Of a DNA stretch of 64,000 nucleotides, positions 9,549 through 25,204 are shown one piece after another. The translations under genes were made by a program, and so were the position numbers. This stretch comes from an uncultured Kordiimonas sp. (GTDB taxonomy: Bacteria; Pseudomonadota; Alphaproteobacteria; Sphingomonadales; Kordiimonadaceae). The notes under the pieces are model-generated. The model had not been told where the DNA came from. It was given only the letters and a program-made list of their open reading frames with translations, and ran no database searches. Every line of letters starts with the position of its first letter. Position 1 is the first letter of the stretch. The stretch is taken from contig CANLMI010000002.1 in NCBI GenBank assembly GCA_947492375.1, forward strand, positions 869,529-933,528, read 5' to 3'.

Positions 9549-10550
9549 ATGCATGCATTGAAATGTTATAAGAAGTACTTGATCAATTCAGGCAAACAAA
9601 ACATTGCTTGCCTGACAATCACACTCATGCTGTCTACTCTTGCATCAACGACTGTTCTTTCATTACCAAATGCATGCCCCAAACCGATAAAAACAGACGA
9701 CCCATTTTCTGGTTTTGATGACCTCTTGAGCGATGACGAAAAACGCGCAGAATTACACAAAGACCTCGACCGTAAACTCGCGCAGCACAACGCTCCATGC
9801 GACCCTACCGAAAAACAGAGTAAACCTTCACAGGCACCAGCAACGGCTTCTACTCCTTCTCAAAGTCAGACCGATAATCAAAAAGGCGAACAAAAAAGCG
9901 CACCACAGGCTACACAAACCAACCCCCAAGAGAGCACCAAGGTGTCATCAGAACCGGATTTACCGTCCGTTACATCAACGAATAATAATGCCCCTAAAAT
10001 CAATGAAGACACTTATTCCTCACCTTGGGCTAACCATTCAACGAAAAATAATGACCAACAGTCTATCGCTTTAGAACCAATGGAAACGAATACTCCACAA
10101 GACAGTTCAGCGTCAGCATTCGGTTCACAATCACAAGCTCCTGTTGAGACTATCAATAGCGACACAAAACAATCGCTTCCATCATCCAGTATTTCTGGCG
10201 CCGACGGCAAACAACAAAGAACAAAGGCGACACCACCCACCACAGCCAAAGTTGAGTCAGAATTTTTAAAGAAGTACGGTGCCTCAACGCAACCATCATC
10301 TCAAAGCATTGAAGATATCGCTGACCAACATAAAAACCGCAGTCAATATGGATTTGGCACGCCAGGCAACACAGGGTCTAACACCCAAACACCAAACTAT
10401 TCTGATCCACAAAGAAATACTGATCAGGCAACAACTATTAGTGCCGATAAAGCTGTTTTAGCAGCGCTAAAAAAGCGCTTAGCACATGAAAAAGACCCAG
10501 AGAAAAGAAAAGAAATTCAAGCCGAAATTGATCGATATAAAAAGAAATAA
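9549..10550 (+). CDS. Secreted low-complexity protein, first gene of the envelope cluster
   Basis: No family recognised; 333 aa. A Sec signal peptide spans about residues 1-38. A short acidic conserved-looking segment follows (about 50-83, 'DPFSGFDDLLSDDEKR' and then DLDRKL), and the centre (about 85-290) is very rich in Ser, Thr, Gln, Asn and Pro, so probably disordered. The last 36 residues are a charged helix ending in lysines. The motif DLD[RK][KR]L-x3-N-[AT]-P at residues 72-83 recurs at the mature N-terminus of the next protein, which suggests a common partner. The build suits a flexible periplasmic or surface tether, but no function can be assigned. It is 74 bases ahead of the next gene. 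Confidence 0.7.
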   Translation: MHALKCYKKYLINSGKQNIACLTITLMLSTLASTTVLSLPNACPKPIKTDDPFSGFDDLLSDDEKRAELHKDLDRKLAQHNAPCDPTEKQSKPSQAPATASTPSQSQTDNQKGEQKSAPQATQTNPQESTKVSSEPDLPSVTSTNNNAPKINEDTYSSPWANHSTKNNDQQSIALEPMETNTPQDSSASAFGSQSQAPVETINSDTKQSLPSSSISGADGKQQRTKATPPTTAKVESEFLKKYGASTQPSSQSIEDIADQHKNRSQYGFGTPGNTGSNTQTPNYSDPQRNTDQATTISADKAVLAALKKRLAHEKDPEKRKEIQAEIDRYKKK

Positions 10551-10624
10551 AATAATAATAATTATAAGCCACCAGAATGAAGAATACTTGGCAAACACAT
10601 ATGCAGAATATTTAAGGGGCTAAC

Positions 10625-11845
10625 GTGAGACAATCTTTTATAAATTTAAATCAATATTTATTTAGATCATTGATTTTACTGACAATAACGCTGATGGGTG
10701 CAAATGCGTCTGCTCAGGATTTTGATCTCGACAAACGGTTAAAAAAACAAAATACACCACCAGTTGCTACTACACATAAAACCATCCAATATGCTGACAC
10801 CAGCCACCTACCTAAACTTGATGTCATTATCCCAGTTTTTGATCCAAATATTCCGAAAAAAGACAAAGATGATGTTTGGCCTGAAGTAAGACGGGCAGAA
10901 GCAAATCGCTTTGCCTGGATGATGAAAAAGGCCTTAGAGCGATCACAGGCTTTTGGTGCAGTGAGAGTGAGCCCGAACGATTCTGGATTTGGCGAAATAT
11001 ATGTACACGGCAAAATTCTCAGAGCAAACGGGGAAGACATCAGACTCGAAATTACCGTTAATGATATTCGCGGTAAAAAGAAAACATGGATCAAAGCCAA
11101 AAAATTTAAATACCGCGTACAAGAGAGTTTTCACAAAAGCACAAGAACTAAAGGAAGTGATTCTTACGCGCCTATTTTTGATATGATTGCACAGGAAATT
11201 GTTAAAAAACTATCCCGCAAGAAAGCAAAAGATCTTCAGAAATTGCCTGCCATTACAGAAATGCGGTTCGCTAATATGTTTGGATCTGAGTATTTTGGCA
11301 AGTATCTAAAATCAAAGAGGGGAACGTATAAACTGGTAGGTTTGCCCGATGAAAATGACCAAGTTTATGCAAAAATTCGGGCCATGCGCATTCAAGAACA
11401 ACTTTTCATCGACCAATTACAGCCACACTATGAAGACTTTAGCACACGCATGAACCCACATTACTTTGCCTGGCAAGAACATGCCTTGCCAATTGCACGT
11501 GAACGTCGGAAACAAAAAAATGCTGCCATGTGGGGCACAATAGCTGCAATTGGCGGTACTGTTGTTGCGGCAACTAGCGATAATAAAACAGTCCAAACAG
11601 TTGGCGTCGTTACAGCCGTTGGTGGAGGCTTGGTTGCGTTCAAAAAGTTTGGTGACGCCAAAGCAAGCGCTAGTGTACTCGATGAGATGGGTCGCACATT
11701 AAATTTGGACTTAGGTGTACAGGTTGTAGAATTTGAAGGAATTCAAACCAAACTTGAAGGCGATGCCATTGATCAATTTGTGGCTTACCGTGTTCATCTC
11801 CTGAAAATATATGAAAGCGAATATACACCTGATGTTCAATTATAG
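10625..11845 (+). CDS. Periplasmic protein of unknown family, envelope cluster
   Basis: A 406-aa exported protein that I do not recognise. The GTG start at 10625 has an AAGGGG ribosome site. The signal peptide ends near 'NASA-Q' (residues 27-31), leaving a mature N-terminus with DLDKRL-x3-NTP (34-45), a motif shared with the preceding gene. Residues about 60-180 read as alternating strands and helices, starting with 'KLDVIIPVFDPNIP' and holding 'GEIYVHGKILRANGEDIRL'; this resembles envelope proteins with a LpoB/CsgG-like or TolB-like fold, but that is only an impression. A Gly/Ala/Val-rich segment near 300-335 ('GTIAAIGGTVVAAT', 'VGVVTAVGGGLVAF') could associate with a membrane. Next gene starts 30 bases on. 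Confidence 0.7.
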   Translation: MRQSFINLNQYLFRSLILLTITLMGANASAQDFDLDKRLKKQNTPPVATTHKTIQYADTSHLPKLDVIIPVFDPNIPKKDKDDVWPEVRRAEANRFAWMMKKALERSQAFGAVRVSPNDSGFGEIYVHGKILRANGEDIRLEITVNDIRGKKKTWIKAKKFKYRVQESFHKSTRTKGSDSYAPIFDMIAQEIVKKLSRKKAKDLQKLPAITEMRFANMFGSEYFGKYLKSKRGTYKLVGLPDENDQVYAKIRAMRIQEQLFIDQLQPHYEDFSTRMNPHYFAWQEHALPIARERRKQKNAAMWGTIAAIGGTVVAATSDNKTVQTVGVVTAVGGGLVAFKKFGDAKASASVLDEMGRTLNLDLGVQVVEFEGIQTKLEGDAIDQFVAYRVHLLKIYESEYTPDVQL

Positions 11846-11875
11846 AGCCCGGTCTATAAAAAATTGGGCTTGAAG

Positions 11876-13393
11876 ATGAAGGATAAAGCTGAACAAAATG
11901 GGCATACTGAAAGTGCCGATTCTAAGTTTCAAACCCTCAATGCAGCGCGTGAACGCCGCAACAATATGGTTGGGCACGGTAAACGCGCGCTCATTGCTTT
12001 TGCTATCTGTGTAATTATTGCAGGCGGTATTTTTACCGTATTCTCGTTTCAGAATATCTCGCCTTCTAACTTATCAAACACCACTGACAACACAGTACCT
12101 TCGGATCAAGAAGCCATAGACTGCGAAATAATTACGGTATCACCTGCTGATACTGAGCACCCTTGTAACTTGAAAGACCGTTTCCATGAAATATACCGTA
12201 TTTTCACGGCACAGCATCTGCCCGACCTAGAAAACTCTGCAAAAGAGAAATTTGTTCAAATTGAGCTTACGAAAATACAAGAAACAGAAAGTAATGCCAT
12301 CGAAGCATTCGACAAATCTGATTTCACGGCTGCTATTACTCTCATAGAAACGGCAATAAATGCATCCGAGGCTTTAAAAACGAATATTAATAACACTTTT
12401 AAAGAAACCTATTTTAAGGCGTCGCAGGCATTTCAATATAATGACTACCAAACAGCAAAAAGTTATATTGAAAAGTCCCTGAGGTTAAACCCTTCTGATG
12501 CTAATTCTGCCACCCTTCAAGAGCGTATCGCCGTTTTACCAGATGTATTAAACTTATATCAAAAAGTTGCTGAGGCAGAAGTACAAAACCAGTTACTGGA
12601 TAAGTTCAGATATATGAAAAAAATTCTGGCACTTGACCCTATGAGGCAAGATATCGCGTCCGAATTACCAGTTCTTGGTAAACAAATTAAAGAGATCCAA
12701 TATGATAACTTTCTGAGGCAAGCAGGCGGATTTATTGACAACGACGAACTTGACCGCGCCAGAAATACACTAGCTGAAGCAAACAGTCTCTTTCCAAACA
12801 GACACGATAGTGCCGCGCTGTTACAGAAAATTGCCTCAATAGAAAAACAACGCCTGATCACCAGACTACTGGATGACGCAAAATTTGCTGAAACGAATGA
12901 TGATTGGCCTACGGCCATGCGTAACTATAATCAAGTTTTAACAGAAGACAATACAAATCAAATAGCAGAAAACGGCCGTGAGAAAGCCAATACAATTATT
13001 CAAGCTAACAACAGAGGGGTTGATATGTTAAATCGGCAAAGTCGTATGCAGGATACTCGTATTCACCAACGCATTGTAGAATTTGTTGAACAGATCAAAC
13101 CACTTGCGACAGACAGCCCCACATTAGCAACTACCATAAATTCGTTAGAAGAAACTCTGTTATTATGGGCACAAACCAGAAAAGTAACGGTGCTATCAGA
13201 TGGAAAATCAGATATAAAAGTTCGCCGGGTTGGCAATGTGGGGAAGATAAAGTCGAAAGATATTAACCTGAAGCCCGGCAGCTATGAATTCGAATGCACT
13301 CGCAAAGGTTATCGTTCCAATATTGTAAAACATCATATCCCACCGCAGGGCAAAATTGGCTCCGTTACTATTATTTGTGATGTCCCTGTTTAG
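11876..13393 (+). CDS. Membrane-anchored TPR protein with C-terminal PEGA-like domain
   Basis: 505 aa: a cytoplasmic N-terminus (1-37), one membrane helix (about 38-58), then a periplasmic region. That region holds helical TPR-like repeats (about 130-410; for example 'NDYQTAKSYIEKSLRLNPSDA' and 'DWPTAMRNYNQVLTEDN') and a C-terminal beta domain of about 65 residues with a PEGA-like ending ('LKPGSYEFECTRKGYRS'). TPRs suggest a protein-binding scaffold. I start at the ATG at 11876; a TTG four codons earlier lacks a ribosome site. Flanked by the unknown periplasmic protein and the PEGA/FGE protein, it looks like a structural part of the same complex. No enzymatic motif seen. Confidence 0.75.
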   Translation: MKDKAEQNGHTESADSKFQTLNAARERRNNMVGHGKRALIAFAICVIIAGGIFTVFSFQNISPSNLSNTTDNTVPSDQEAIDCEIITVSPADTEHPCNLKDRFHEIYRIFTAQHLPDLENSAKEKFVQIELTKIQETESNAIEAFDKSDFTAAITLIETAINASEALKTNINNTFKETYFKASQAFQYNDYQTAKSYIEKSLRLNPSDANSATLQERIAVLPDVLNLYQKVAEAEVQNQLLDKFRYMKKILALDPMRQDIASELPVLGKQIKEIQYDNFLRQAGGFIDNDELDRARNTLAEANSLFPNRHDSAALLQKIASIEKQRLITRLLDDAKFAETNDDWPTAMRNYNQVLTEDNTNQIAENGREKANTIIQANNRGVDMLNRQSRMQDTRIHQRIVEFVEQIKPLATDSPTLATTINSLEETLLLWAQTRKVTVLSDGKSDIKVRRVGNVGKIKSKDINLKPGSYEFECTRKGYRSNIVKHHIPPQGKIGSVTIICDVPV

Positions 13394-13426
13394 GCCAATC
13401 GATTTTTAATACTGTTGAAGTCAATC

Positions 13427-15535
13427 ATGTCAAAAAAGCCAAAATCTTTAAAAGACTTAAAAAAAGCAACCGAGACTGTTGGCCCTGACGCAACGCCCAA
13501 GAAAACTTCGCAAAACATCCACGCAGCAATTGGAAATGCCAAAGGTAATCAGATTAAAGCACTGATTGTCGGTAGTATTGTCGTCTTTATATTGTTGGTT
13601 GCCATGTCAACATTCTACATGTTTTCAAAGGGCTTAGCAGTCCTGATAAAACCCGAAGATGCCTTGACAAATGGCTATGTAACCTTGGAATCAGGCCTTG
13701 GCTGGGTATCTGACGATCAGGAAGTATTTGTATTAGGGTCATCCTACCAGATCAGTGTTCATGCAGCCGACTTTATCAGCCAGACAATTGACATTACAAA
13801 TGATCAAAAAACCAGTTTTATCGAAGTCGTGTTACAACCAAAACCAGCAACGCTTCATATTAAAACAGATCCAGTAAAAGAGGGCACAAAATGGCTAATT
13901 GATGGTAAGCAGGTCACTACTAACAAACAATTAGATACAGAACTTCCGCCCGGCGATTACCAACTGATCGTGGACCACCCTTATTTTGATCCAATCAATC
14001 AAACGCTAACCCTAAACCGTGCAGAAAATGTGAACCGGGTTATTCCTTTGAATAAAACACAAGGCCAAATTTCATTGCAGTCAATACCATCAGGCGCTTC
14101 TGCCGTTCTTGATGGTGTAACACCAATTATCTTGCCATACTCGGGGCTGATAGACGGCGGTAAACACAGCATACAAATTAACGCAAACGGTTATACCCCA
14201 ATTATAGACCAAATTGAGATTACTAACACACAAAAAGTCATACAAAGAAACTACCGCCTGGAACCAATGCAGGCAGGGGTACAAATCAATGTCCAACCTC
14301 AATCTGCACGAATTACAATTGATGGCAAATCGGTTAACAGTGCCAAGATAACACCTGTTAATGCCAACCAAAGCTACCGCATTGAAGTTTCTTACCAAGG
14401 GTATGTGCCTGAACGACGCACAGTTCGTATCCCGCCCGGGCAAACGGAACAACTCTCTTTCACACTAAAGCCTGCGTATGGTACTATTACATTCAGTACA
14501 GAACCCCGCGGCGCCGATATATTTATAAATGGCCAAAATAAGGGGAAAACACCCTTAACGACCAACTTACAAGTCCTTCCAACTAAGGTAGAATATAGGC
14601 GCATAGGCTACAGGGCGGTAGTTGAAAACATAACGCCCGTTTTGAATAAAACAACCACAGTCAACGCACGCCTATTAACTGAACTTGATGCACGACTGCA
14701 AGAGTTACCAAGGGTCATGACGGATAGTGCAGGTATTGAACTTGTAAGGTTTAAACCTGACCGGCAGGCGTTTTTCATTGGGGCCCAACGCGGCGACCCG
14801 GGCCAAATGGCGAATGAAATATATCGCCAGGTGCAGCTTACTAAATATTTCTATGCCAGCAAATATGAAGTAACCGCCAACCAGTTTAGGAAGTTTGCGC
14901 CTTCCTATACCAATACTGGAGCAAATAACATGCCTGCTACACAGGTAACATGGCTTGAAGCAGCACAGTTTTGTAATTGGCTAAGTAACCAGGAAAAACT
15001 AAATCCGTTTTACACCATTCGATCCGGGCAGGTAGTAGGATATGATCCATACGCAGATGGATACAGATTGCCATCAGAATCAGAATGGGAATGGCTCGCC
15101 CGTAAATCACGCCGGCAACAAATCACGCCCTTTACATGGGGAAGCCGAAGCACAGTTACATCAACTGCGGGCAACTTGGCAGATGAAGCAGCAAAAAGCT
15201 CGGTACCTAAATATATCCCAAATTATACCGATGGCTACGCGACGTTAGCACCTGTAGGAAGTTTTCCTACAGAAATATCTGGCCTTCATGATATGTCGGG
15301 TAACGTACGGGAATGGGTTAATGACCGCTATGCGTTAAATGTCCCTGCGCGGGGAACTATTGCCGTAAATTATTTCGGCCCTCAATCGGGTGACGGCCAT
15401 GTTGTCAAAGGCTCAAGTTATAGAACGGCAAACCTTACCAACCTTCGTGCCGCAAGCCGACAAAAAGAAGGAATAAGCGCTGATGATATCGGTTTCAGAG
15501 TTGTAAGATATGTTTACGGTGCAGAAGATAAATAA
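13427..15535 (+). CDS. Membrane-anchored PEGA-repeat protein with C-terminal FGE/SUMF1-like domain
   Basis: 702 aa. After a basic cytoplasmic N-terminus and one membrane helix (about 43-65) come four PEGA-type beta repeats (about 140-208, 212-279, 282-348, 350-417) and a possible fifth before them. The repeats end in motifs such as 'NGYTPII', 'QGYVPERRTVRIPPG' and 'IGYRAVVE'. Residues about 430-697 form a formylglycine-generating-enzyme-like domain ('KYEVTANQFRKF', 'QVTWLEAAQFCNWLS', 'YRLPSESEWEWLARK', 'GLHDMSGNVREWVNDRY'). The C-terminal active-site cysteines of true FGE are absent: the only Cys is the one in 'AAQFCNW'. It is therefore probably a binding, lectin-like module rather than a sulfatase activator. 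I start at the ATG at 13427, not the TTG at 13415. Confidence 0.85.
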   Translation: MSKKPKSLKDLKKATETVGPDATPKKTSQNIHAAIGNAKGNQIKALIVGSIVVFILLVAMSTFYMFSKGLAVLIKPEDALTNGYVTLESGLGWVSDDQEVFVLGSSYQISVHAADFISQTIDITNDQKTSFIEVVLQPKPATLHIKTDPVKEGTKWLIDGKQVTTNKQLDTELPPGDYQLIVDHPYFDPINQTLTLNRAENVNRVIPLNKTQGQISLQSIPSGASAVLDGVTPIILPYSGLIDGGKHSIQINANGYTPIIDQIEITNTQKVIQRNYRLEPMQAGVQINVQPQSARITIDGKSVNSAKITPVNANQSYRIEVSYQGYVPERRTVRIPPGQTEQLSFTLKPAYGTITFSTEPRGADIFINGQNKGKTPLTTNLQVLPTKVEYRRIGYRAVVENITPVLNKTTTVNARLLTELDARLQELPRVMTDSAGIELVRFKPDRQAFFIGAQRGDPGQMANEIYRQVQLTKYFYASKYEVTANQFRKFAPSYTNTGANNMPATQVTWLEAAQFCNWLSNQEKLNPFYTIRSGQVVGYDPYADGYRLPSESEWEWLARKSRRQQITPFTWGSRSTVTSTAGNLADEAAKSSVPKYIPNYTDGYATLAPVGSFPTEISGLHDMSGNVREWVNDRYALNVPARGTIAVNYFGPQSGDGHVVKGSSYRTANLTNLRAASRQKEGISADDIGFRVVRYVYGAEDK

Positions 15536-15545
15536 AAGGGCCGAT

Positions 15546-15779
15546 ATGAAGAACAGCAAAGTTAAAGAAATTAAACACTCATATACCCCATCAGACCCCA
15601 ATGCATCAGGCATAATGGCCAATTCGCCTACTCGTCACGAGATACGAATACATAAAAGTCTGATATGTGCAGGGCTACTTTTGCTGGCATGCGTCTACTC
15701 ACATAGCCTTGTAGCCCAGCAAGCTGCCAAACAACGTATATCCGTAAGCCAAGCCGTAAACTTTCCCAATGATATATAA
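15546..15779 (+). CDS. Small secreted or anchored protein in the envelope cluster
   Basis: 77 aa, no family recognised. A hydrophilic stretch of about 35 residues precedes a hydrophobic segment ('LICAGLLLLACVYSHSLVAQQ'), which could be a membrane anchor or a late signal peptide cleaved after 'SLVA'. The roughly 20 residues beyond it ('ISVSQAVNFPNDI') would lie in the periplasm. I use the ATG at 15546 with an AAAAGGG ribosome site, 10 bases after the previous stop; an upstream in-frame start would overlap the PEGA/FGE gene. It directly precedes the MotA/TolQ/ExbB gene by 30 bases, so a role as a small accessory subunit of that channel is plausible but unproven. Confidence 0.6.
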   Translation: MKNSKVKEIKHSYTPSDPNASGIMANSPTRHEIRIHKSLICAGLLLLACVYSHSLVAQQAAKQRISVSQAVNFPNDI

Positions 15780-15809
15780 GCCTAGAGACAATAAAAGAGG
15801 AACAGAAAC

Positions 15810-16571
15810 ATGAAGAATTCACTTATATCCTTTGCTGTCTTTTTTGGGATCGTTATCGTCGTACATCTCGTTTATATCGGCGTAATCATACCGCAGGCGG
15901 AACAATCAACATTAACAGCTATTCAAAATGGGCAGTCAGTTTCACGCAGCCTTTGGGTTATTTTACAAGACGGAGAACAAGAAGTTTGTTTCATACTGAT
16001 GTTTTACGGCATGTATTTACTTGGGCTTGGCATGTATCGTCTCTGGTCAGACAATTATCTATTTGATGTGGATTTATTGGAAGAAGCAGACGCGGAAAAT
16101 CACAGCCTCGGTGAAATCTTGAAAGACCTTAGCGGATTAGACGAAAAAATTAAATCAACCCCACTTGTCCAAACATTATCTGCCAGCTTGAGGCGTTATT
16201 TGATCACTAACAATGTGCAAAATGCCTCAGATGCCGTAACAACGAGTGTCGATGCTCTCGCTGTACGTATTGAAGCAGGTAATTCTATGATCCGGTATCT
16301 TATTTGGGCAATTCCATCGATTGGATTCATTGGCACAGTACGCGGTATTGGCGTTGCGCTTGCAAAAGCTGACGAAGCTCTCGCTGGAGACATTGTTGGA
16401 ATGACCGGAGCCCTTGGTGTTGCCTTCAACTCAACTTTAGTCGCATTATTTATCAGTATAATCCTGATGTTCTTGTTACATGCACTTCAGAAAATGCAGG
16501 ATGAATTATTAGTAAAAACACAGACATATTGCGAAAAAACGCTGCTGGAACGTATTAGCCAAACTGCCTGA
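15810..16571 (+). CDS. MotA/TolQ/ExbB-family proton channel protein
   Basis: 253-aa inner-membrane protein of the family that conducts protons to drive Mot, Tol and Exb machines. Four membrane helices are readable at about 8-30, 56-79, 160-185 and 205-228. The signature part is the C-terminal pair: 'AIPSIGFIGTVRGIGVAL' followed by 'GALGVAFNSTLVALFISI', with the Pro, Gly and Thr/Ser positions typical of the family. The cytoplasmic stretch between helices 2 and 3 is about 80 residues, shorter than in MotA and like TolQ. An AGAGGA ribosome site precedes the ATG. There is no ordinary tolR/exbD neighbour; instead two VWA proteins with stator-like helices follow, which I infer to be its partners. 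Confidence 0.88.
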   Translation: MKNSLISFAVFFGIVIVVHLVYIGVIIPQAEQSTLTAIQNGQSVSRSLWVILQDGEQEVCFILMFYGMYLLGLGMYRLWSDNYLFDVDLLEEADAENHSLGEILKDLSGLDEKIKSTPLVQTLSASLRRYLITNNVQNASDAVTTSVDALAVRIEAGNSMIRYLIWAIPSIGFIGTVRGIGVALAKADEALAGDIVGMTGALGVAFNSTLVALFISIILMFLLHALQKMQDELLVKTQTYCEKTLLERISQTA

Positions 16572-16610
16572 AAACTTGTAATCAAATAGATCCTGTAGGA
16601 GCATAAATGC

Positions 16611-17654
16611 GTGGCCGCAAAACGTAAAACTGAGAGCTCAACACTCGCTTTTCTGGATATTATTTCCTGTGGCCTCGGGGCAGTTATTTTGATCTTCCTC
16701 ATCATCAAGCATAATGTTGATATCGGATCAGAGCAAACTGATGCTTTAAAAGCCGAGTTGGCTGCACTTGAACAAGAGGCAGAGCGACTAGCGAGCGAAG
16801 CTGAAAAATTAAAAAGGCAAAACGCTGATATTGAACAAGCGAGCCAGTCTTTGGAAGACCAACTTATCAATTCAGATGGCAAGCTTACAGCTCTTAAGCA
16901 ACAAAATATATCCAAAGAAAAACGAAATAAAGTTGCTGAAGGTGAACTAGAAAAAATCGAAGTTGAAATACCCGTAGACCGTGTTGAATTAACTGGCGCA
17001 GGCCAGGCAAATTATATTGTTGGCATGAAGGTAGAAGGAGACCGCATAGCCATACTGATTGATCATAGCACATCCATGACATATCCAACACTTGAGCAAG
17101 CAGTACTTGCTAAATTTGACAGCCAGAGCCAACGGCAAACAGCACCAAAATGGCAACGCACAGTCAGGGTCGCCAAATGGCTATTAGCGCGCATACCAGA
17201 ACAGTCACAGTATACTGTCATTGGATTTAATAATCAGGCCAGTTTCTTGTCACCCCAAAACACCTGGTTGTCCGCATCAAACACCGCAGACATTGCAGCA
17301 ACTATTGGAACTATATCCACCCTCTCACCATCAAATGGCACCAATTTACAGGCTGGTATCGAAGAGGCTCTAAAACTCTCACCTAAACCAACGAGTATCT
17401 ATATTGTAACGGACGGGCTTCCGACAAACGGTGACGTATCATGCGCAAAGAAATCCTCTGTTACGCCGCAGTGCCGTAGAGCCCTGATGACAGATATTTC
17501 CAAAACCCTCGCTTCGACCTTCCCACGAGGCAATGTTCCCATAAATACAATTCTATTACCCATGACCGGAGACCCGGATGCACAAGCATTATTTTGGGGC
17601 TGGGCGAATGCATCAAAAGGCACCGTTCTTTCACCAACGAAGAGTTGGCCATGA
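16611..17654 (+). CDS. VWA-domain membrane protein with stator-like helix (1)
   Basis: 347 aa, read from the GTG at 16611 with an AGGAG ribosome site 9 bases upstream. A single membrane helix (14-32) begins 'FLDIISCGLGAVIL', with Asp16 where TolR, ExbD and MotB carry their essential Asp. A coiled coil rich in Glu, Ala, Lys and Gln follows (about 40-120). The C-terminal von Willebrand A domain (about 140-345) has a complete MIDAS: 'DHSTS', the Thr of 'NGTNLQAG', and the Asp of 'VTDGLPT'. It would project the metal-binding domain into the periplasm. It overlaps the next gene by ATGA, and the two share the helix motif, so they arose by duplication. Role inferred: proton-driven partner of the TolQ-like channel. 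Confidence 0.82.
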   Translation: MAAKRKTESSTLAFLDIISCGLGAVILIFLIIKHNVDIGSEQTDALKAELAALEQEAERLASEAEKLKRQNADIEQASQSLEDQLINSDGKLTALKQQNISKEKRNKVAEGELEKIEVEIPVDRVELTGAGQANYIVGMKVEGDRIAILIDHSTSMTYPTLEQAVLAKFDSQSQRQTAPKWQRTVRVAKWLLARIPEQSQYTVIGFNNQASFLSPQNTWLSASNTADIAATIGTISTLSPSNGTNLQAGIEEALKLSPKPTSIYIVTDGLPTNGDVSCAKKSSVTPQCRRALMTDISKTLASTFPRGNVPINTILLPMTGDPDAQALFWGWANASKGTVLSPTKSWP

Positions 17655-18613
17655 GACGTAGAGACCGAGAAACTGATATTTTCAGCCTTTCCTTTCTGGA
17701 TATTGTTTCCTGCGCCTTTGGTGCTGTTGTTCTACTTCTTATCATATCGCGCCCTGAAGTAGCACCTGAAGGAAGCGGCAGTGAAAGCAAAGACCTCTTA
17801 AGGCAACTCTTTAGATCAGAAGCAGAAAATGCACAGCTTGCCGACCTTGGCGAACAAGAGAAAGTTAACCTAGAAGGCTTAAAAAATAAAAATCGCGACT
17901 TGGCGGAACAACTGCAAGCCCTCAAAGAACGTACCCACCTAGAAGAATCTAGAGCAGCAGAACTCGCAAAAAGCCGCGCCCAAATTGAAGCGCGCAAAGT
18001 GGAACTGGAAAAATTAGCGCAAGTAACAGACGCCACACCGGTTGCTGAACCAACAGAGGAAGTTGGGGGCATTCCGATTGACAGCGATTATGTTGTCTTT
18101 GTGATCGATACATCTGGCAGCATGCGCGACAAATGGCAATTTGTGAAAAGTGTCATCGACAGAGTTTTGACAATGCACCCACAAGTCAAAGGGTTTCAAA
18201 TCGTCAATGACAATGGGTTTTACCTAAAAAACCGCGGCAGATGGATCACAGATACACCCAGCCAAAGACAACTTGCTCTTCGTCAAACAAATAGATGGTC
18301 CCCAAACTCTAACAGTAATCCTTATGAAGGTATAGCAGAAGCATTGAAAACATACGGCAACCGCAACGGTAAATTAGCGATTTACGTTTTTGGCGATGAT
18401 TTTGCGAGCCGCAACTTCGATAATACCGTCAATGCAATTGCTACACTAAACACATCTAGCTCTGGGAAAAAGAAAGCAAGAATTCATGGAATTGGCTTTA
18501 CCGGAAACCCAACCAAGTACCGAGGTGTTGATAATGGTGCTTACACCTTTTCAATCTTAATGAACGCTGTAGCCCGGGAAAACAATGGCGCATATCTGAG
18601 CTTATCTCGCTGA
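17651..18613 (+). CDS. VWA-domain membrane protein with stator-like helix (2)
   Basis: 320 aa. The start is the ATG at 17651, which overlaps the previous stop as ATGA; a longer in-frame reading from 17594 lies inside the upstream gene and is not needed. The layout matches its neighbour: basic N-terminus, membrane helix (about 14-32) with 'FLDIVSCAFGAVVLL' and Asp17, a coiled coil (about 45-125), then a VWA domain (about 145-320) with a perfect 'DTSGSM' MIDAS start and 'VFGDDFA'. The middle MIDAS Thr is not obvious ('SNSNPYEG'), so metal binding may differ from that of protein 1. Last gene of the cluster; 165 bases of intergenic DNA follow before the ECF sigma gene. Confidence 0.82.
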   Translation: MRRRDRETDIFSLSFLDIVSCAFGAVVLLLIISRPEVAPEGSGSESKDLLRQLFRSEAENAQLADLGEQEKVNLEGLKNKNRDLAEQLQALKERTHLEESRAAELAKSRAQIEARKVELEKLAQVTDATPVAEPTEEVGGIPIDSDYVVFVIDTSGSMRDKWQFVKSVIDRVLTMHPQVKGFQIVNDNGFYLKNRGRWITDTPSQRQLALRQTNRWSPNSNSNPYEGIAEALKTYGNRNGKLAIYVFGDDFASRNFDNTVNAIATLNTSSSGKKKARIHGIGFTGNPTKYRGVDNGAYTFSILMNAVARENNGAYLSLSR

Positions 18614-18778: not shown

Positions 18779-19306
18779 TTGAGTATTTTGGGCAAAAAAG
18801 AATTAATTGAAGCATATCTTAAACTGAGGCCAGTTCTGATCAGATTCTTGGTGGCACGTTTCAGAGATGACGCAATTGCAGAAGACATTGTCCAGGAAAT
18901 ATATTTCAAACTAGACAGACTTTCCGGAGAGTTAAATATTGAAAATATTGATGCTTATTTATTCAAAATAGCAAATAATTTAGCATTAGACTTCAGAAAA
19001 TCGGTCCTTAGACGACATAAAAGAGAGCTTACCTGGAACGAATTAAGTACTCATACAATAAAAGGGGAACCAGTTCATGACCAACCGAATGCTCTCGAGT
19101 CAATTAATGGACAACAAAAATTTGCAAAATTAGAGCAGCTGATAGAAGAACTACCACCTCAGTGTAAGAGAGTATTCATTGCTCACAAAATACAGGGGGC
19201 AAGCCATAAAGAAATTGCGGAAAAACTAAATATCTCTCGCAGCGCTATTGAAAAACATATGGCTAGGGCCCTGAAATACTTAGCTACAAATATTGATCGT
19301 GACTAA
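18779..19306 (+). CDS. ECF-family RNA polymerase sigma factor, FecI-like
   Basis: 175 aa. Region sigma-2 (about 10-70) includes 'DAIAEDIVQEIYFKL' and 'DAYLFKIANNLALDF'; region sigma-4 (about 115-168) includes 'ELPPQCKRVFIAHKIQGASHKEIAEKLNISRSAIEKHM'-type residues that bind the -35 element. The TTG start at 18779 is supported by a GGGGAAG ribosome site. A FecR-type regulator and a TonB receptor with a signalling domain follow on the same strand, the standard arrangement for cell-surface signalling: ligand at the receptor releases the sigma factor through FecR, which then raises transcription of the receptor. Confidence 0.92.
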   Translation: MSILGKKELIEAYLKLRPVLIRFLVARFRDDAIAEDIVQEIYFKLDRLSGELNIENIDAYLFKIANNLALDFRKSVLRRHKRELTWNELSTHTIKGEPVHDQPNALESINGQQKFAKLEQLIEELPPQCKRVFIAHKIQGASHKEIAEKLNISRSAIEKHMARALKYLATNIDRD

Positions 19307-19409
19307 AAATGCAACAAAACAATCACAACATGAGGTATTGTCAATTCTGCGGCGTCTATTGTTATAGTAGTATATCGTTTGCCCCTAGTCGCTTTATCAG
19401 GAACCATAG

Positions 19410-20468
19410 ATGAGCCCGCAAAATAACAATAAAATAGAGCCGAAACTGCTCGAGGAAGCGGCTGATTGGCATGCGCGGGTAAACAGCGACCAAGCCATAA
19501 CCGAGGACTGGTTATCGTTAACAGCTTGGCTGGAAAAGACCCCAGATCACGCAAAAGCATATGATGCGGTTGAGAATATCGCTTTTGATGCAGAGTTATT
19601 GCCTGCTTCCAAGTTTAGCGAAAATATTTTTGATGATATTTCAACAAATACAAATATCAATGAACCTGCACCAACGGTACATCCTGGCTTTTTTGCAAAA
19701 ACACAGCATTTAGCATTTAATAAAACCGCTGGCTTTTTCATTTTATTAGGCTTTCTGATAGCCGGTATGATGTATGCTCCTAATTTAACAGGCCCTGAAA
19801 CATCAGAATTTATGCCGCAGTATTATGTTGCTGGCAACAAATCCAATCAAGTAACCTTAGCTGATGGTTCCATAGTTAATCTGAATGTGAATAGTGAAAT
19901 AACAGCGCTATTAACTGAAAAAGAACGACGGATTACCATGACAAAAGGTGAAGCAATTTTTGATGTCAGTAAAGACCCCGCCAGACCGTTCATTATAACA
20001 GTTGCCGATACTGATATCAGAGTTGTTGGTACTGTTTTTAACGTTTTAAAGGAGCAAACTGGCCTATCGGTGACTGTCTCTGAGGGAATTGTAGAAGTCA
20101 TGCCATCCTCACGAGAGACAAATAATGTTTCCAACCGTCAATTCCCTAATAAAATTTTAAATGCTGGACAACAATTTCAGTTAAAAAATGAAGACAACAG
20201 ACCTATTGTGCGTAATATTGAAGCTGAGAATATATTAGCATGGAGAAAAGGGCAGTTAATTTATGAGGAAGCAGATTTACAGCAAGTTATGAGCGATTTA
20301 GGTCGATACCTTAACAAACCAGTTGATGTTGCTGCATCACTTAGCAGCTTATCATTCTCTGGCGTACTATTAACGGATGACATCGAAGCAAGTTTTCTGG
20401 TTCTTGAGAGCAGCTTACCTATCAAAGTTTCATCTTCAAACACGCTGATTGCCGTTAACCCTCAATAA
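19410..20468 (+). CDS. FecR-family sigma regulator
   Basis: 352-aa inner-membrane anti-sigma/sigma regulator. The N-terminal cytoplasmic DUF4880-type domain (about 10-60, 'LLEEAADWHARVNS' and 'DHAKAYDAVENI') would bind the FecI-like sigma factor. One membrane helix lies at 106-122. The periplasmic FecR domain (about 140-235) carries 'ADGSIVNLNVNSEI', 'GEAIFDVSKDPARPF' and 'VRVVGTVFNV'-like residues, and a C-terminal domain (about 270-345) would contact the receptor's signalling domain. It sits 103 bases after the sigma gene and 15 bases before the TonB receptor. An AGGAA ribosome site precedes the ATG. Confidence 0.9.
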   Translation: MSPQNNNKIEPKLLEEAADWHARVNSDQAITEDWLSLTAWLEKTPDHAKAYDAVENIAFDAELLPASKFSENIFDDISTNTNINEPAPTVHPGFFAKTQHLAFNKTAGFFILLGFLIAGMMYAPNLTGPETSEFMPQYYVAGNKSNQVTLADGSIVNLNVNSEITALLTEKERRITMTKGEAIFDVSKDPARPFIITVADTDIRVVGTVFNVLKEQTGLSVTVSEGIVEVMPSSRETNNVSNRQFPNKILNAGQQFQLKNEDNRPIVRNIEAENILAWRKGQLIYEEADLQQVMSDLGRYLNKPVDVAASLSSLSFSGVLLTDDIEASFLVLESSLPIKVSSSNTLIAVNPQ

Positions 20469-20483
20469 ATTTAAACTCTAGGT

Positions 20484-22991
20484 ATGGCCTGTCGAATATT
20501 AGTAAATATCGTTGTTTCCATGATTCTACTTAGTGCTCCTGATGAAGCCTGGGCGGAAGTCGCTGGGGAAATCAACACCGACAAACATGACTTTAATATC
20601 GACGACCAGCCCCTAGCCAAAGCTTTACAGACGTTCGCCCAACAAGCCAATATAGCCATCAGCACGCCTCATTTAACCTACAAAGATGGAAAAAGTAAAT
20701 TATTACAAGGCCGGTTTACCATCAAAACCGGGCTCGAACGCCTTCTGCAAAACTCACCATTTACCTATAAAATACTGTCTTCTCGTGCGATCAAAATATA
20801 TAAGCCAAAGCAATCAACACCGCATCAGCCCAAACAGTTACTGGCCAGTCAAATTGACTATGATGTTGAAGTAGATTCAATCGAAGAAATTCTCGTTACC
20901 TCTGCCAGAAGAACTGAAACTATTTTTTCTGTGCCTACATCAGTAAGTATCTTTAGCCCGAAACCAAATGAACAATTTGGTAGCCTAGACACACTTGAGC
21001 TTACGCGCAAAGTATCCGGTTCGCATAATAGTTTACAAAACCCGGGGCAAAATAAACTTATTTTACGCGGGCTTTCTGACGGGGCTTTCAATGGCCGTGC
21101 ACAATCTCTGGTAAGTACATACATCGATAATTCACGTATCATATATAATACACCTGACCCAGGTTTGGGCCTGACAGATATTGATCAGGTAGAAGTTCTT
21201 AGAGGACCACAAGGTACATTATATGGGTCCGGCGCTCTAAGTGGCCTGTATCGAATCACAACACGAAAGCCTGATTTTGAAGGTTTTGATATCCAATTGG
21301 CGTCATCACTAAGCACAACAAACGGTGGTGATCCATCATATAACCTTTCAGGCATTATAAATCTGCCATTTGTGAAAGATAAATTAGCATTAAGAGCCGT
21401 TGTACTTTACCGCGACAAAGGGGGGTATATCGACAATACTCAACTTAATCTTGAAGATATCAATTCCAGTAAAACCACCGCAACTCGTATCGCAGTGTCT
21501 TATCGATTTAATAACAACCTGAGCCTCACTCTTGGCCTTAATTATCAAGACTTTAGGTCTGACGATAATAACTATTTCATCGAAGGCCTCTCACCTTTCA
21601 GTGTAGACAATAATTTTCAAGAACCCTTTGAAGATGAATTGGTTCAACCCAACCTAACAATAGACGCAAACCTTGGCTGGGCTACGCTAACCTCAAGTAC
21701 AACATGGTTAAACCGCGATATTAACAGTGTTCTAGATGCTTCAACTACAATCATCCGGCGTTTCTCTGATGACAATGCTACAGGCACTTTTGAGAGCATA
21801 CAAAATGTAGAAACCATATCAAACGAAACACATCTAACATCACCATTAGGCGAACGATTAGAATGGGTACTCGGAACATTCTTCTCCCATAGGAGAGAAA
21901 GCAACGACTCTGCATTATTCGCACAAGCTGATATTTTATCGTTGATCGATTTTACTCAAGTACCCGATATACCGCTCGGTGCAATTTTTTTTGAAGGTCG
22001 TTTCGAAACGCTAACCGAACTAGCAATTTTTGGCGAAGCAACATATTACCTGTCCGATAAAGTGTCAGTAACTTCCGGACTACGCTGGTTTAACTATAAC
22101 GGTGATGCTTTCTCTCGCGTACGATCACTAGGCAGTAATGATACAATAGGGCTTACAGGATCACAGTTAGATAATGATTTCATCCCAAAAATATCACTCT
22201 CTTACTATGCTTCGGACAACTTAACCCTTTATAGTCAATTTTCTGTCGGATGGCGCCTCGGCGGTACAAACCTTTTAGGGTCTTCAATCAATTTCGCTAA
22301 TGTCGGGTTCATCGACGAAAACAACATTCTCGATAATTTCGCCTCTGACTCACTTTTAAACTATGAAATTGGTGCGAAATATATTTCACCAGATAATACC
22401 CTTCATGCCAGCTTTGCCAGCTTCTTCTCCTCATGGCAAGATATTCAATCTTATCAATTTTCGCCAGATGGTATACCTGATATCGATAATGTAGGAGATG
22501 CCATAATCTATGGATTTGACGCTGAAATCTCTTACACTGTCAAGGACACCCTAAAAATTGATACGAATATTGCGTGGAATAGGTCAGAAATCACAAATAC
22601 AACAAATCGTTTTGGCGCTCAAGCTGGTGATCGGCTGCCTGGCGCTCCTGCCTTTACCGCAGGCATCTCCCTTCAAAAAGACTTTACTCTTTCTAACCAG
22701 CCTTTTAGCCTCAGCACGTCATATAATTATGTTGGCCCAACACGCCTTCTTTTTGAGACAGAAGCAACGCCTCGTGCCGATCAATATCATTTAACTAACC
22801 TTGAAGTAAGTACAAGCTTCCAATCAATTAATGTCACACTTTTTGCTAACAACCTGTTCAATTCACAGGCTAATACATTTCCGTTCTCAAATCCTTTTAA
22901 TTTAGAAGTTGCCGACAGTGGCTTTAAAAGCAGACAGATCACCCCTCTGACACCGCGTACCATTGGTGTTGCCATTAACTGGCAGTATTAA
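20484..22991 (+). CDS. TonB-dependent outer-membrane receptor with STN signalling domain
   Basis: 835 aa. A signal peptide (about 1-23) is followed by a secretin/TonB short N-terminal (STN) signalling domain (about 40-100: 'FNIDDQPLAKALQTFAQQANIAIST', 'LQGRFTIKTGLERLLQNS'), a TonB-box-like stretch and plug ('EEILVTSARR', 'VEVLRGPQGTLYGSGALSG'), then a long beta-barrel ending in an aromatic residue ('GVAINWQY'). It imports a ligand across the outer membrane and reports it to FecR. Missing haem or siderophore hallmarks leave the ligand unknown: it could be a siderophore, vitamin or glycan. The ribosome site is weak, so it may depend on coupling to fecR 15 bases upstream. Confidence 0.92.
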   Translation: MACRILVNIVVSMILLSAPDEAWAEVAGEINTDKHDFNIDDQPLAKALQTFAQQANIAISTPHLTYKDGKSKLLQGRFTIKTGLERLLQNSPFTYKILSSRAIKIYKPKQSTPHQPKQLLASQIDYDVEVDSIEEILVTSARRTETIFSVPTSVSIFSPKPNEQFGSLDTLELTRKVSGSHNSLQNPGQNKLILRGLSDGAFNGRAQSLVSTYIDNSRIIYNTPDPGLGLTDIDQVEVLRGPQGTLYGSGALSGLYRITTRKPDFEGFDIQLASSLSTTNGGDPSYNLSGIINLPFVKDKLALRAVVLYRDKGGYIDNTQLNLEDINSSKTTATRIAVSYRFNNNLSLTLGLNYQDFRSDDNNYFIEGLSPFSVDNNFQEPFEDELVQPNLTIDANLGWATLTSSTTWLNRDINSVLDASTTIIRRFSDDNATGTFESIQNVETISNETHLTSPLGERLEWVLGTFFSHRRESNDSALFAQADILSLIDFTQVPDIPLGAIFFEGRFETLTELAIFGEATYYLSDKVSVTSGLRWFNYNGDAFSRVRSLGSNDTIGLTGSQLDNDFIPKISLSYYASDNLTLYSQFSVGWRLGGTNLLGSSINFANVGFIDENNILDNFASDSLLNYEIGAKYISPDNTLHASFASFFSSWQDIQSYQFSPDGIPDIDNVGDAIIYGFDAEISYTVKDTLKIDTNIAWNRSEITNTTNRFGAQAGDRLPGAPAFTAGISLQKDFTLSNQPFSLSTSYNYVGPTRLLFETEATPRADQYHLTNLEVSTSFQSINVTLFANNLFNSQANTFPFSNPFNLEVADSGFKSRQITPLTPRTIGVAINWQY

Positions 22992-23800: not shown

Positions 23801-23863
23801 CTATTTTCAATAGATCGCTTCATATCCAGATAAAGAAAACACCCCTGCGTAAGATTAATCCGT

Positions 23864-24451
23864 CTAGTAGTATCCTATGGGGCCCGTCTGCATAAACCTT
23901 CCAAGAGCAGGATGGTAATAAATAGTAAAGCCAGGTTGCAGCAGCCAGCCGGCGACCCGTAAAGCGGAATGGTTGACTATCTTCCTCACCAGAAATACCA
24001 AACTCGTTATAGGTAAACGCCGATGTCCGCTGGCCCGAACTATGCGAAGACATCGCAACCGTCGTACCCAGATAATCAGTGTGATAATAACTGATCTTAG
24101 GATTTGTCGTCAGGGATGTCGAGCCATCAGGGCGCTTAACAACATAATTGATAAAGGCAACACGTTCATCAACGCCTGCTCCGTTGATATACCGACGGAA
24201 AGGCTGAGAATAATGGTTACCATCCTGAATAGGTTCAAAATCATAATAGTTAAACGTGGTTTGTTTTTTATCACCTTCCCCTGCGTCAACAAGCTGCTTG
24301 AACCGACGACCAAGCGCATCATAAAAATAATACACCGTCTTCTGTTTATCCTCAGCCTTAACAAGCTGGTTGAACATATCATACTTATAGGTCCAACCAT
24401 CATAACTCGTCAGGTTACCGTTTTTATCATAGGTAGCGTCTTGATCTGGAA
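23864..24451 (-). pseudogene. Decayed RHS/YD-repeat protein fragment
   Basis: The minus strand encodes the last part of an RHS/YD-repeat core, starting directly at the insertion-sequence edge ('DATYDKNGNLTSYDGWTYKYDMFNQL') and passing through 'YYFYDALGRRFKQLVD', 'ISYYHTDYLGTTVAMSS' and 'FRFTGRRL'. At about 23917-23925 the frame breaks: the expected 'YYYRARYYHPALGRF' is shortened by about 10-11 bases, and the continuation 'IYYHPALGRFMQTGPIGYY' is in another frame, ending at a stop at 23864. The 'TDPIGYY' hallmark is mutated to TGPIGYY. The 5' part of the gene and any C-terminal toxin are missing. RHS proteins are polymorphic toxins or surface filaments; this one cannot be functional. Confidence 0.85.
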
Positions 24452-24469
24452 GGTGCTGTCAGTTTAAAG
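24452..24469 (+). repeat. IS6-family terminal inverted repeat, left
   Basis: GGTGCTGTCAGTTTAAAG; aligns with the reverse complement of 25241-25258 at 13 of 18 positions, including GG, TGTCAG and TTAAA. Confidence 0.8.
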
Positions 24470-24505
24470 CTAACCAGTCTCAACTTACACGCATAGGGCG
24501 ATAGT

Positions 24506-25204
24506 CTAGTTTATAATTTGCCGCCACTCAAGAAATGCCTGAGTGCGAAAACTAAGATAATCATGTCGTGTAATGAGATGTCGTTCTCCATTAAAATGAT
24601 TTTGAATTTGGGACTGGATTGAAGTGAATTTCTGAAGTGATTTGTCGCTTCGGAATTTGTTCATCGCGCTTTCTCGTCGTCGGAAAACCAAGTGAGAGTT
24701 CTCTGCTCGATTATTCATCCAGCGACCAACTGATTGAATATGCTTACACCCTAATTCTTTCATCGCTGCACCGTATGACTTTAATCTGTCAGTGACGATA
24801 GAGTAGGGACGTCCAAAACGTTTCATCAGCCTTTTCAATACTTTACGAGCCGCATTTTTATCACGTTTCTCGGTCACAAGCACATCAAGAACTTCACCTT
24901 CATGGTCAACAGCACGCCATAAATACCGAGTTTGTCCATTGATTTTGACAAAGACTTCGTCGATATGCCAACGCCAATTTGAGTGATTTTGCGCTTTTAA
25001 ATATCGTCTTTTTCTTAAATTATTTGCGATAATTGGTCCAAATCTATTCCACCAAAATCGCACCGTTTCATGGCAAATGTTGATACCTCGTTCGGCCAGA
25101 ATTTCCTCTACGTTTCGGAGTGAGAGCGAATATCTCACATACAGCAAAACGGTTGATTGAATAATTTCTGGTGAAGATTTAAAATAGCGAAATGAAATGT
25201 TCAT
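24506..25204 (-). CDS. IS6-family transposase
   Basis: DDE transposase of 232 aa. The N-terminal helix-turn-helix region ('RYSLSLRNVEEILAERGI', 'CHETVRFWWNRFGP') is typical of the IS6 family, and the catalytic triad reads Asp82 ('WHIDEVFVKI'), Asp139 ('IVTDRLKSY') and Glu168 ('NNRAENSH'). The gap between the second Asp and the Glu is about 28 residues by my count, a little short of the 34 I recall for IS26. The frame is intact, so the element may still move. It catalyses replicative cointegrate formation. Confidence 0.93.
   Translation of the reverse strand: MNISFRYFKSSPEIIQSTVLLYVRYSLSLRNVEEILAERGINICHETVRFWWNRFGPIIANNLRKRRYLKAQNHSNWRWHIDEVFVKINGQTRYLWRAVDHEGEVLDVLVTEKRDKNAARKVLKRLMKRFGRPYSIVTDRLKSYGAAMKELGCKHIQSVGRWMNNRAENSHLVFRRRESAMNKFRSDKSLQKFTSIQSQIQNHFNGERHLITRHDYLSFRTQAFLEWRQIIN

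Follow-up and report, generated by a model that had tools for sequence, protein, structure and literature searches.

What do the eight genes at positions 9549–18613 of this stretch make, and is it something already known? The window, by which we mean the whole stretch of 64,000 nucleotides that was analysed (G000:C2:869529-933528), belongs to a 3.94-Mb genome with six MotA_ExbB genes (by Pfam). An earlier note read the eight genes, all on one strand, as a possible undescribed proton-driven machine of the envelope. To our knowledge, few proton-driven trans-envelope machines are known (the flagellar stator, Ton, Tol, Agl, Gld, and Zorya).

According to the ORF list and the translations, the region is a single operon with all eight genes on the plus strand, in the order g1, g2, TPR, PEGA/pseudo-FGE, micro-exported peptide, MotA/TolQ/ExbB channel, VWA1, and VWA2 (Table 1). 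The ORFs, the Pfam matches, and an AlphaFold model of VWA2 bear out the composition that had been described. Several starts were corrected: to ATG for the TPR gene (11876), the PEGA/FGE gene (13427), and the small gene (15546), to GTG for VWA1 (16611), and to an ATG for VWA2 (17651) that lies in an ATGA overlap with VWA1. Pfam gave no family match for g1, g2, or the small gene, and searches with PADLOC and NCBIfam returned no system name. Promoter-like sites were no more frequent in the operon region than in shuffled sequence.

Table 1. The eight genes of the operon, with positions in the window.
Feature	Position	Strand	Evidence
g1, exported low-complexity protein with conserved C-terminal helix	9549..10550	+	ORF; one family joins 72 loci (BLAST)
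g2, exported, putative CsgG/TolB-N/PelC/FlgT-like domain	10625..11845	+	Conservation, AF2, Foldseek/VIA
TPR protein, bitopic in the inner membrane, C-terminal PEGA-like segment	11876..13393	+	Weak TPR matches, hydropathy, conservation
PEGA/FGE-fold bitopic protein	13427..15535	+	Pfam PEGA and FGE-sulfatase
Exported micro-protein ending in FPNDI	15546..15779	+	Position and C-terminus, 91/91 distinct loci
MotA/TolQ/ExbB-type channel subunit	15810..16571	+	PF01618, alignment, hydropathy
VWA1, membrane helix, long coiled coil, and VWA domain	16611..17654	+	VWA_2, Asp and MIDAS conservation
VWA2, membrane helix, ~84-residue helix, and VWA domain	17651..18613	+	Asp conservation, AF2, Foldseek

The check suggested in the earlier note was whether the genes keep their order in distant bacteria, and they do. 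Scanning with an alignment of the channel identified at least 559 confirmed candidates in named genomes, and we kept 80 of them for comparison of the loci. Once duplicates were removed, 75 loci were complete, with all six core genes; they come from Alpha-, Gamma-, and Zetaproteobacteria and from MAGs of Desulfobacterota. The order and strand of these genes were identical in 73 of the 75. One of the two exceptions (L072) is due only to an unrelated extra TPR match. The other (L095) is split into two convergent units: one strand carries PEGA/FGE and the channel, the opposite strand carries g2, TPR, VWA1, and VWA2, and all of the genes are kept. Because the core genes share their order in 73 of the 75 complete loci, the arrangement is not due to chance. 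In 18 larger regions, we found g2, TPR, PEGA/FGE, (the small gene), the channel, VWA1, and VWA2 in this order wherever the contig was long enough; one region (G179) has an additional gene between the channel and VWA1, and another genome (G938) carries the same operon. When the six proteins are compared, their pairwise distances show correlations of 0.86–0.93, as expected for genes that are inherited together.

The matches listed include Rhodospirillales, Magnetovibrio, Kordiimonadaceae, Methylophaga, Pseudoalteromonas, Rheinheimera, Alteromonas, Woeseiaceae, Mariprofundaceae, and Desulfobacterales, and many of them are MAGs. Within its own genus and family, VWA1 has relatives only in patches; the channel has relatives in other classes. 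The operon family is present in 12 of 397 genomes of Pseudomonadota, in 46 of 297 genomes of one gammaproteobacterial family, and in 32 of the 36 genomes listed for another family (f103). Since its presence is so patchy across the 397 genomes, this is not a housekeeping machine of the envelope. We found no matches to the operon in the plasmids and phages that were searched, and no gene family generally recurs beside the operon in the flanks of the collected loci.

The channel and the two VWA proteins look like the core of a motor. The channel matches MotA_ExbB (PF01618, 7.3e-12), in agreement with the homology first proposed, and hydropathy gives four hydrophobic segments in a MotA-like layout. 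Across 98 sequences, Thr176 and Thr209 of the channel are invariant. In the MotA/ExbB/TolQ family, conserved threonines line the pore, and from the motif we infer that Thr176 and Thr209 are these pore threonines. VWA1 (VWA_2, 8.7e-8) has a single membrane helix, FLDIISCGLGAVILIFLII, in which Asp16 (codon 16656–16658) is conserved in 74 of the 74 sequences that cover the site; its metal site is of the DxSxS type, and its MIDAS residues are 100% conserved. VWA2 also has a single membrane helix, SFLDIVSCAFGAVVLLLII, with an Asp (codon 17699–17701) in 88 of 88 sequences, and the DxSxS residues of its metal site (DTSGS) are invariant. The Pfam match of VWA2 to VWA is weak (0.0022). However, its AF2 model (pLDDT 86) has a helix at 12–32, a second helix at 43–126 (84 residues, or ~126 Å at 1.5 Å per residue), and a domain whose best Foldseek matches are VWA domains (E of about 1e-6 to 1e-7), so VWA2 is predicted to have the VWA fold despite its weak Pfam score. 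In a sequence-profile search of the PDB, VWA2 matched mostly coiled coils, and nothing was found for the channel or g2.

The earlier note took the VWA proteins to be the partners of the channel, and the invariant Asp in both helices, which is of the kind seen in MotB and ExbD, strengthens that reading. The VWA helices have no match to the ExbD model of Pfam, and a helix of 20 residues is too short to prove homology. The note also called these proteins effectors, which did not hold up: VWA1 and VWA2 look like an axle and an arm, and nothing points to toxins. Its statement that the cluster has no exbD or OmpA gene is correct, as the four ExbD matches (PF02472) and the eight OmpA matches of this genome all lie outside the window.

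How much of this was already described? A 2025 article (PMC12204202, Fig. 4c-d) reports tolQ-like genes beside pairs of heterologous vWA genes, with no tolR or exbD. In these pairs, the vWA proteins have a transpore helix that contains an Asp, and AF3 models show a TolQ-like pentamer with the paired Asp-helix vWA proteins; the seed species is Idiomarina loihiensis, and the function is given as unknown. The operon shares with these motors a channel next to two unequal vWA proteins tethered in the inner membrane, the Asp in both helices, and the lack of tolR/exbD (there is no PF02472 match in the window). As judged from the available text of that article, the operon almost certainly belongs to the same family. 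In contrast to the operon, which has further genes, that text presents the motor and the vWA pair only. It mentions neither PEGA nor sulfatase (0 mentions of each), no gene for a peptide is named in its section on these motors, and g1, g2, the PEGA/pseudo-FGE protein, the FPVDI peptide, and the FHA-domain subtype (see below) are absent from it. A full-text literature search yielded no other relevant description of the operon family. Thus, relative to what that text contains, the claim of an undescribed machine fails for the motor core, which had been predicted, and stands for the full conserved gene set, which is new. Also new are an FGE-fold protein without catalytic cysteines, the conserved C-terminal helix of g1, and the FHA-domain subtype, along with the exported FP(V)DI micro-protein and the reading of g2 as, in most cases, a predicted lipoprotein of the outer membrane that carries a putative CsgG/TolB-N/FlgT-like domain.

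Of the three exported proteins that had been described as of unknown type, all do appear to be exported, and they can now be assigned to types: g1 is of low complexity, g2 is CsgG/TolB-N-like, and the third is a micro-protein with a fixed tail. g1 ends with ...ALKKRLAHEKDPEKRKEIQAEIDRYKKK in the window and with ...QIRxAAxxExDPxxxxKLWxEYRKYKG in the family. g2 has a lipobox Cys in 91% of its relatives, which suggests that it is usually an outer-membrane-type lipoprotein. (The lipobox Cys is absent in the window, L050, and L051; it has been lost in the window's own Kordiimonadaceae-like clade.) In the AF2 model of g2 (pLDDT 82.8), a domain at residues ~53–205 is followed by a long helix, which contains hydrophobic segments rich in glycine. 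The solved structures nearest to this N-terminal domain are an LPHT ring chain (Z 8.9), FlgT (8.6), XCC0632 (8.5), PelC (8.1), CsgG (7.7), and TolB (7.0); the match list is dominated by the CsgG/TolB-N/FlgT fold, and the best Z is slightly above the background of 7–8 for unrelated models. Given that background, a CsgG/TolB-N/FlgT-like fold is a plausible, though not a firm, assignment for this part of the model. The predicted fold and the lipidation of most relatives recall CsgG, PelC, TraT, TolB-N, and FlgT, whereas g2 adds a helix of ~70 residues and the glycine-rich segments and has no sequence match to these proteins.

The TPR protein has weak TPR matches in Pfam, a hydrophobic segment at 42–60, and a conserved LxPGxY...G. 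The PEGA/FGE protein (FGE-sulfatase 5.1e-34, PEGA 1.3e-32) is laid out as an N-terminal membrane helix, PEGA repeats, and a C-terminal FGE fold. In some Woeseiaceae-like loci (L132, L133, L135, L136, L139, L142, and L143), the TPR protein is enlarged to ~780–835 residues and the PEGA/FGE protein to ~810. In FGE enzymes, the catalytic pair of cysteines sits in a C-terminal GGSF...C....C motif. An alignment of 92 sequences of the PEGA/FGE protein shows no conserved Cys at this motif, and we therefore reject the idea that it is a catalytic FGE enzyme.

The micro-protein is encoded between the PEGA/FGE and channel genes in 91 of 91 distinct loci, and in all of these its C-terminus is [F/Y/L]Px[D/N][I/M] (FPVDI in 66). 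The consensus (S)FPVDI lies at the extreme C-terminus; in the window, FPNDI occupies codons 15762–15776. Some of the proteins have ~35 residues and consist of a signal sequence, a 15-residue tail, and little else. The proline and isoleucine codons of the tail vary synonymously across loci, which argues that the micro-protein is translated. Where might it bind? Among all columns of the core alignment, position -2 of the peptide is best tracked by residue 33 of VWA1, just past the membrane helix, although this pair was picked from a post hoc scan. There are exceptions when more genomes are considered (E33 with D, D33 with D, and K33 with N), and on the tree, the paired change occurs in two lineages only. 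This co-variation hints at a docking site and might serve as a lead.

In its PF01618 channel, the invariant Thr of the inner helices, and the Asp of the partner helix, the operon resembles the 5:2 rotary motors MotAB, ExbBD, TolQR, and GldLM. Unlike in those motors, the partners are a heterologous pair, each has a VWA domain at its end where the others have one that binds peptidoglycan or an outer-membrane partner, and there is no TolA or TonB. Unlike Tol-Pal and Ton, the window has no ExbD/TolR (PF02472) and no Pal with an OmpA domain. A VWA protein also accompanies a TolQ-family motor in Myxococcus gliding, where the VWA adhesin CglB works with AglRQS. However, CglB is a surface lipoprotein and not the axle of the motor.

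Overall, the operon probably encodes a 5:2 proton motor that turns a VWA1/VWA2 axle, which would act on the periplasmic scaffolds and an outer-membrane lipoprotein. This is supported by the invariant Asp in both VWA helices and the invariant threonines of the channel, the conserved order of the core genes (with all genes kept in L095 even though it is split), the correlated distances of the six proteins, the lack of ExbD and OmpA genes in the window, the helix-helix-VWA architecture of the VWA2 model, and the lipobox and predicted fold of g2. The AF3 models in PMC12204202, which combine a TolQ-like pentamer with a pair of vWA proteins that have the Asp helix, point the same way. Against it speak the missing ExbD match of the VWA helices, the patchy distribution, a g2 fold match that only slightly exceeds background, and the lipobox that g2 has lost in the window's clade. 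We infer the 5:2 stoichiometry, the rotation, the dependence on protons, and the contacts between the parts. The membrane helices of VWA1 and VWA2, one copy of each, would sit within a ring of five channel proteins, and proton flow past the two aspartates would make the pair rotate (or swing) there. Through the long periplasmic helices (~12–13 nm by residue count), the motion would reach VWA domains placed near or beyond the cell-wall layer, whose metal sites or surfaces would act on g2 and on the TPR and PEGA/pseudo-FGE scaffolds anchored in the inner membrane. The output would be work at the outer membrane, most likely force on an outer-membrane complex (for envelope remodelling, export, or surface attachment). 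The FPVDI peptide would be a small dedicated subunit; our guess is that it binds close to the motor's periplasmic mouth, where it would gate or couple the motor. We are more doubtful about the fully specified picture, although it might be right: a trans-envelope rotary machine of an uncharacterised kind, with an axle that ends in two different VWA domains, an outer-membrane ring of g2, a dead FGE/PEGA scaffold, and gating by the FPVDI tail at the periplasmic mouth.

Alternatively, the operon could encode a device for sensing or adhesion, in which the metal sites of the VWA domains bind ligands and the channel turns binding into a proton leak or a signal. The invariant MIDAS residues in both VWA1 and VWA2 fit this idea, and so does a second subtype of the operon. 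In 22 loci (L117, L120, L126, L128, L131, L135, L140, L144, L147, and others), there is an extra gene between the channel and VWA1 whose product (~375–485 residues) has a FHA domain at its C-terminus, where detectable, and an N-terminus that belongs to no family. This protein is apparently cytoplasmic and could be the read-out. However, most loci, including the window, lack the FHA gene, and in the characterised families that combine a MotA/TolQ/ExbB channel with an Asp helix, the flow of protons drives work, so we consider a sensing device unlikely. (By eye, the extra gene had seemed to be actin-like; this was dropped, as the FHA domain alone is supported.) Two genomes, G867 and G894, each have two channel genes of the operon family. 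In both, one copy belongs to an operon with the FHA gene, and the second apparently to an operon that lacks it.

A motor for secretion or gliding that parallels GldLM-GldK of type IX secretion is less probable still. The channel would correspond to GldL, the VWA pair to GldM, the pseudo-FGE protein to a GldK-like ring, and g2, which resembles ring-forming outer-membrane lipoproteins, to an outer-membrane ring. As with GldK/PorK, a periplasmic FGE fold is found near a MotA-family motor, and this region does match GldK (3.5e-20), as it does other FGE-fold models. But the GldK score is far under the cut-off (72.7 versus 350 bits), the plain FGE model fits better, the protein is bitopic with PEGA repeats, and outside the operon we saw no neighbour family that recurs generally. 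Finally, defence against phages or another threat, of the Zorya kind, is very improbable. Weak matches of ZorA models to the channel (0.003) speak for it. Against it, ZorA scores 11.9 bits where the curated cut-off is 500, the window has no ZorB-like OmpA partner, the operon has no nuclease gene (the FHA-domain gene is the sole cytoplasmic addition seen), phages and plasmids gave no matches, and the operon is nearly fixed in one family.

The operon occurs in the genomes of hundreds of species with a fixed list of parts, and its eight genes share their order across many distantly related marine bacteria. The parts list, the diagnostic residues, and the FPVDI tail should allow others to find and dissect it. 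Some of the hosts can be cultivated (Idiomarina, Methylophaga, Rheinheimera, and relatives of Alteromonas), which makes its work directly testable.

Directly downstream of the operon, at 18779–22991, the translations suggest a FecI-like sigma factor, a FecR-like anti-sigma factor, and a TonB-dependent receptor; this set is not conserved together with the operon. Further on (23820–25204), inspection of the translations by eye points to an Rhs-like fragment next to an IS6-like transposase. The genome also has a cluster of two MotA_ExbB genes and three ExbD genes at another site (G000:C3:183497-188868).
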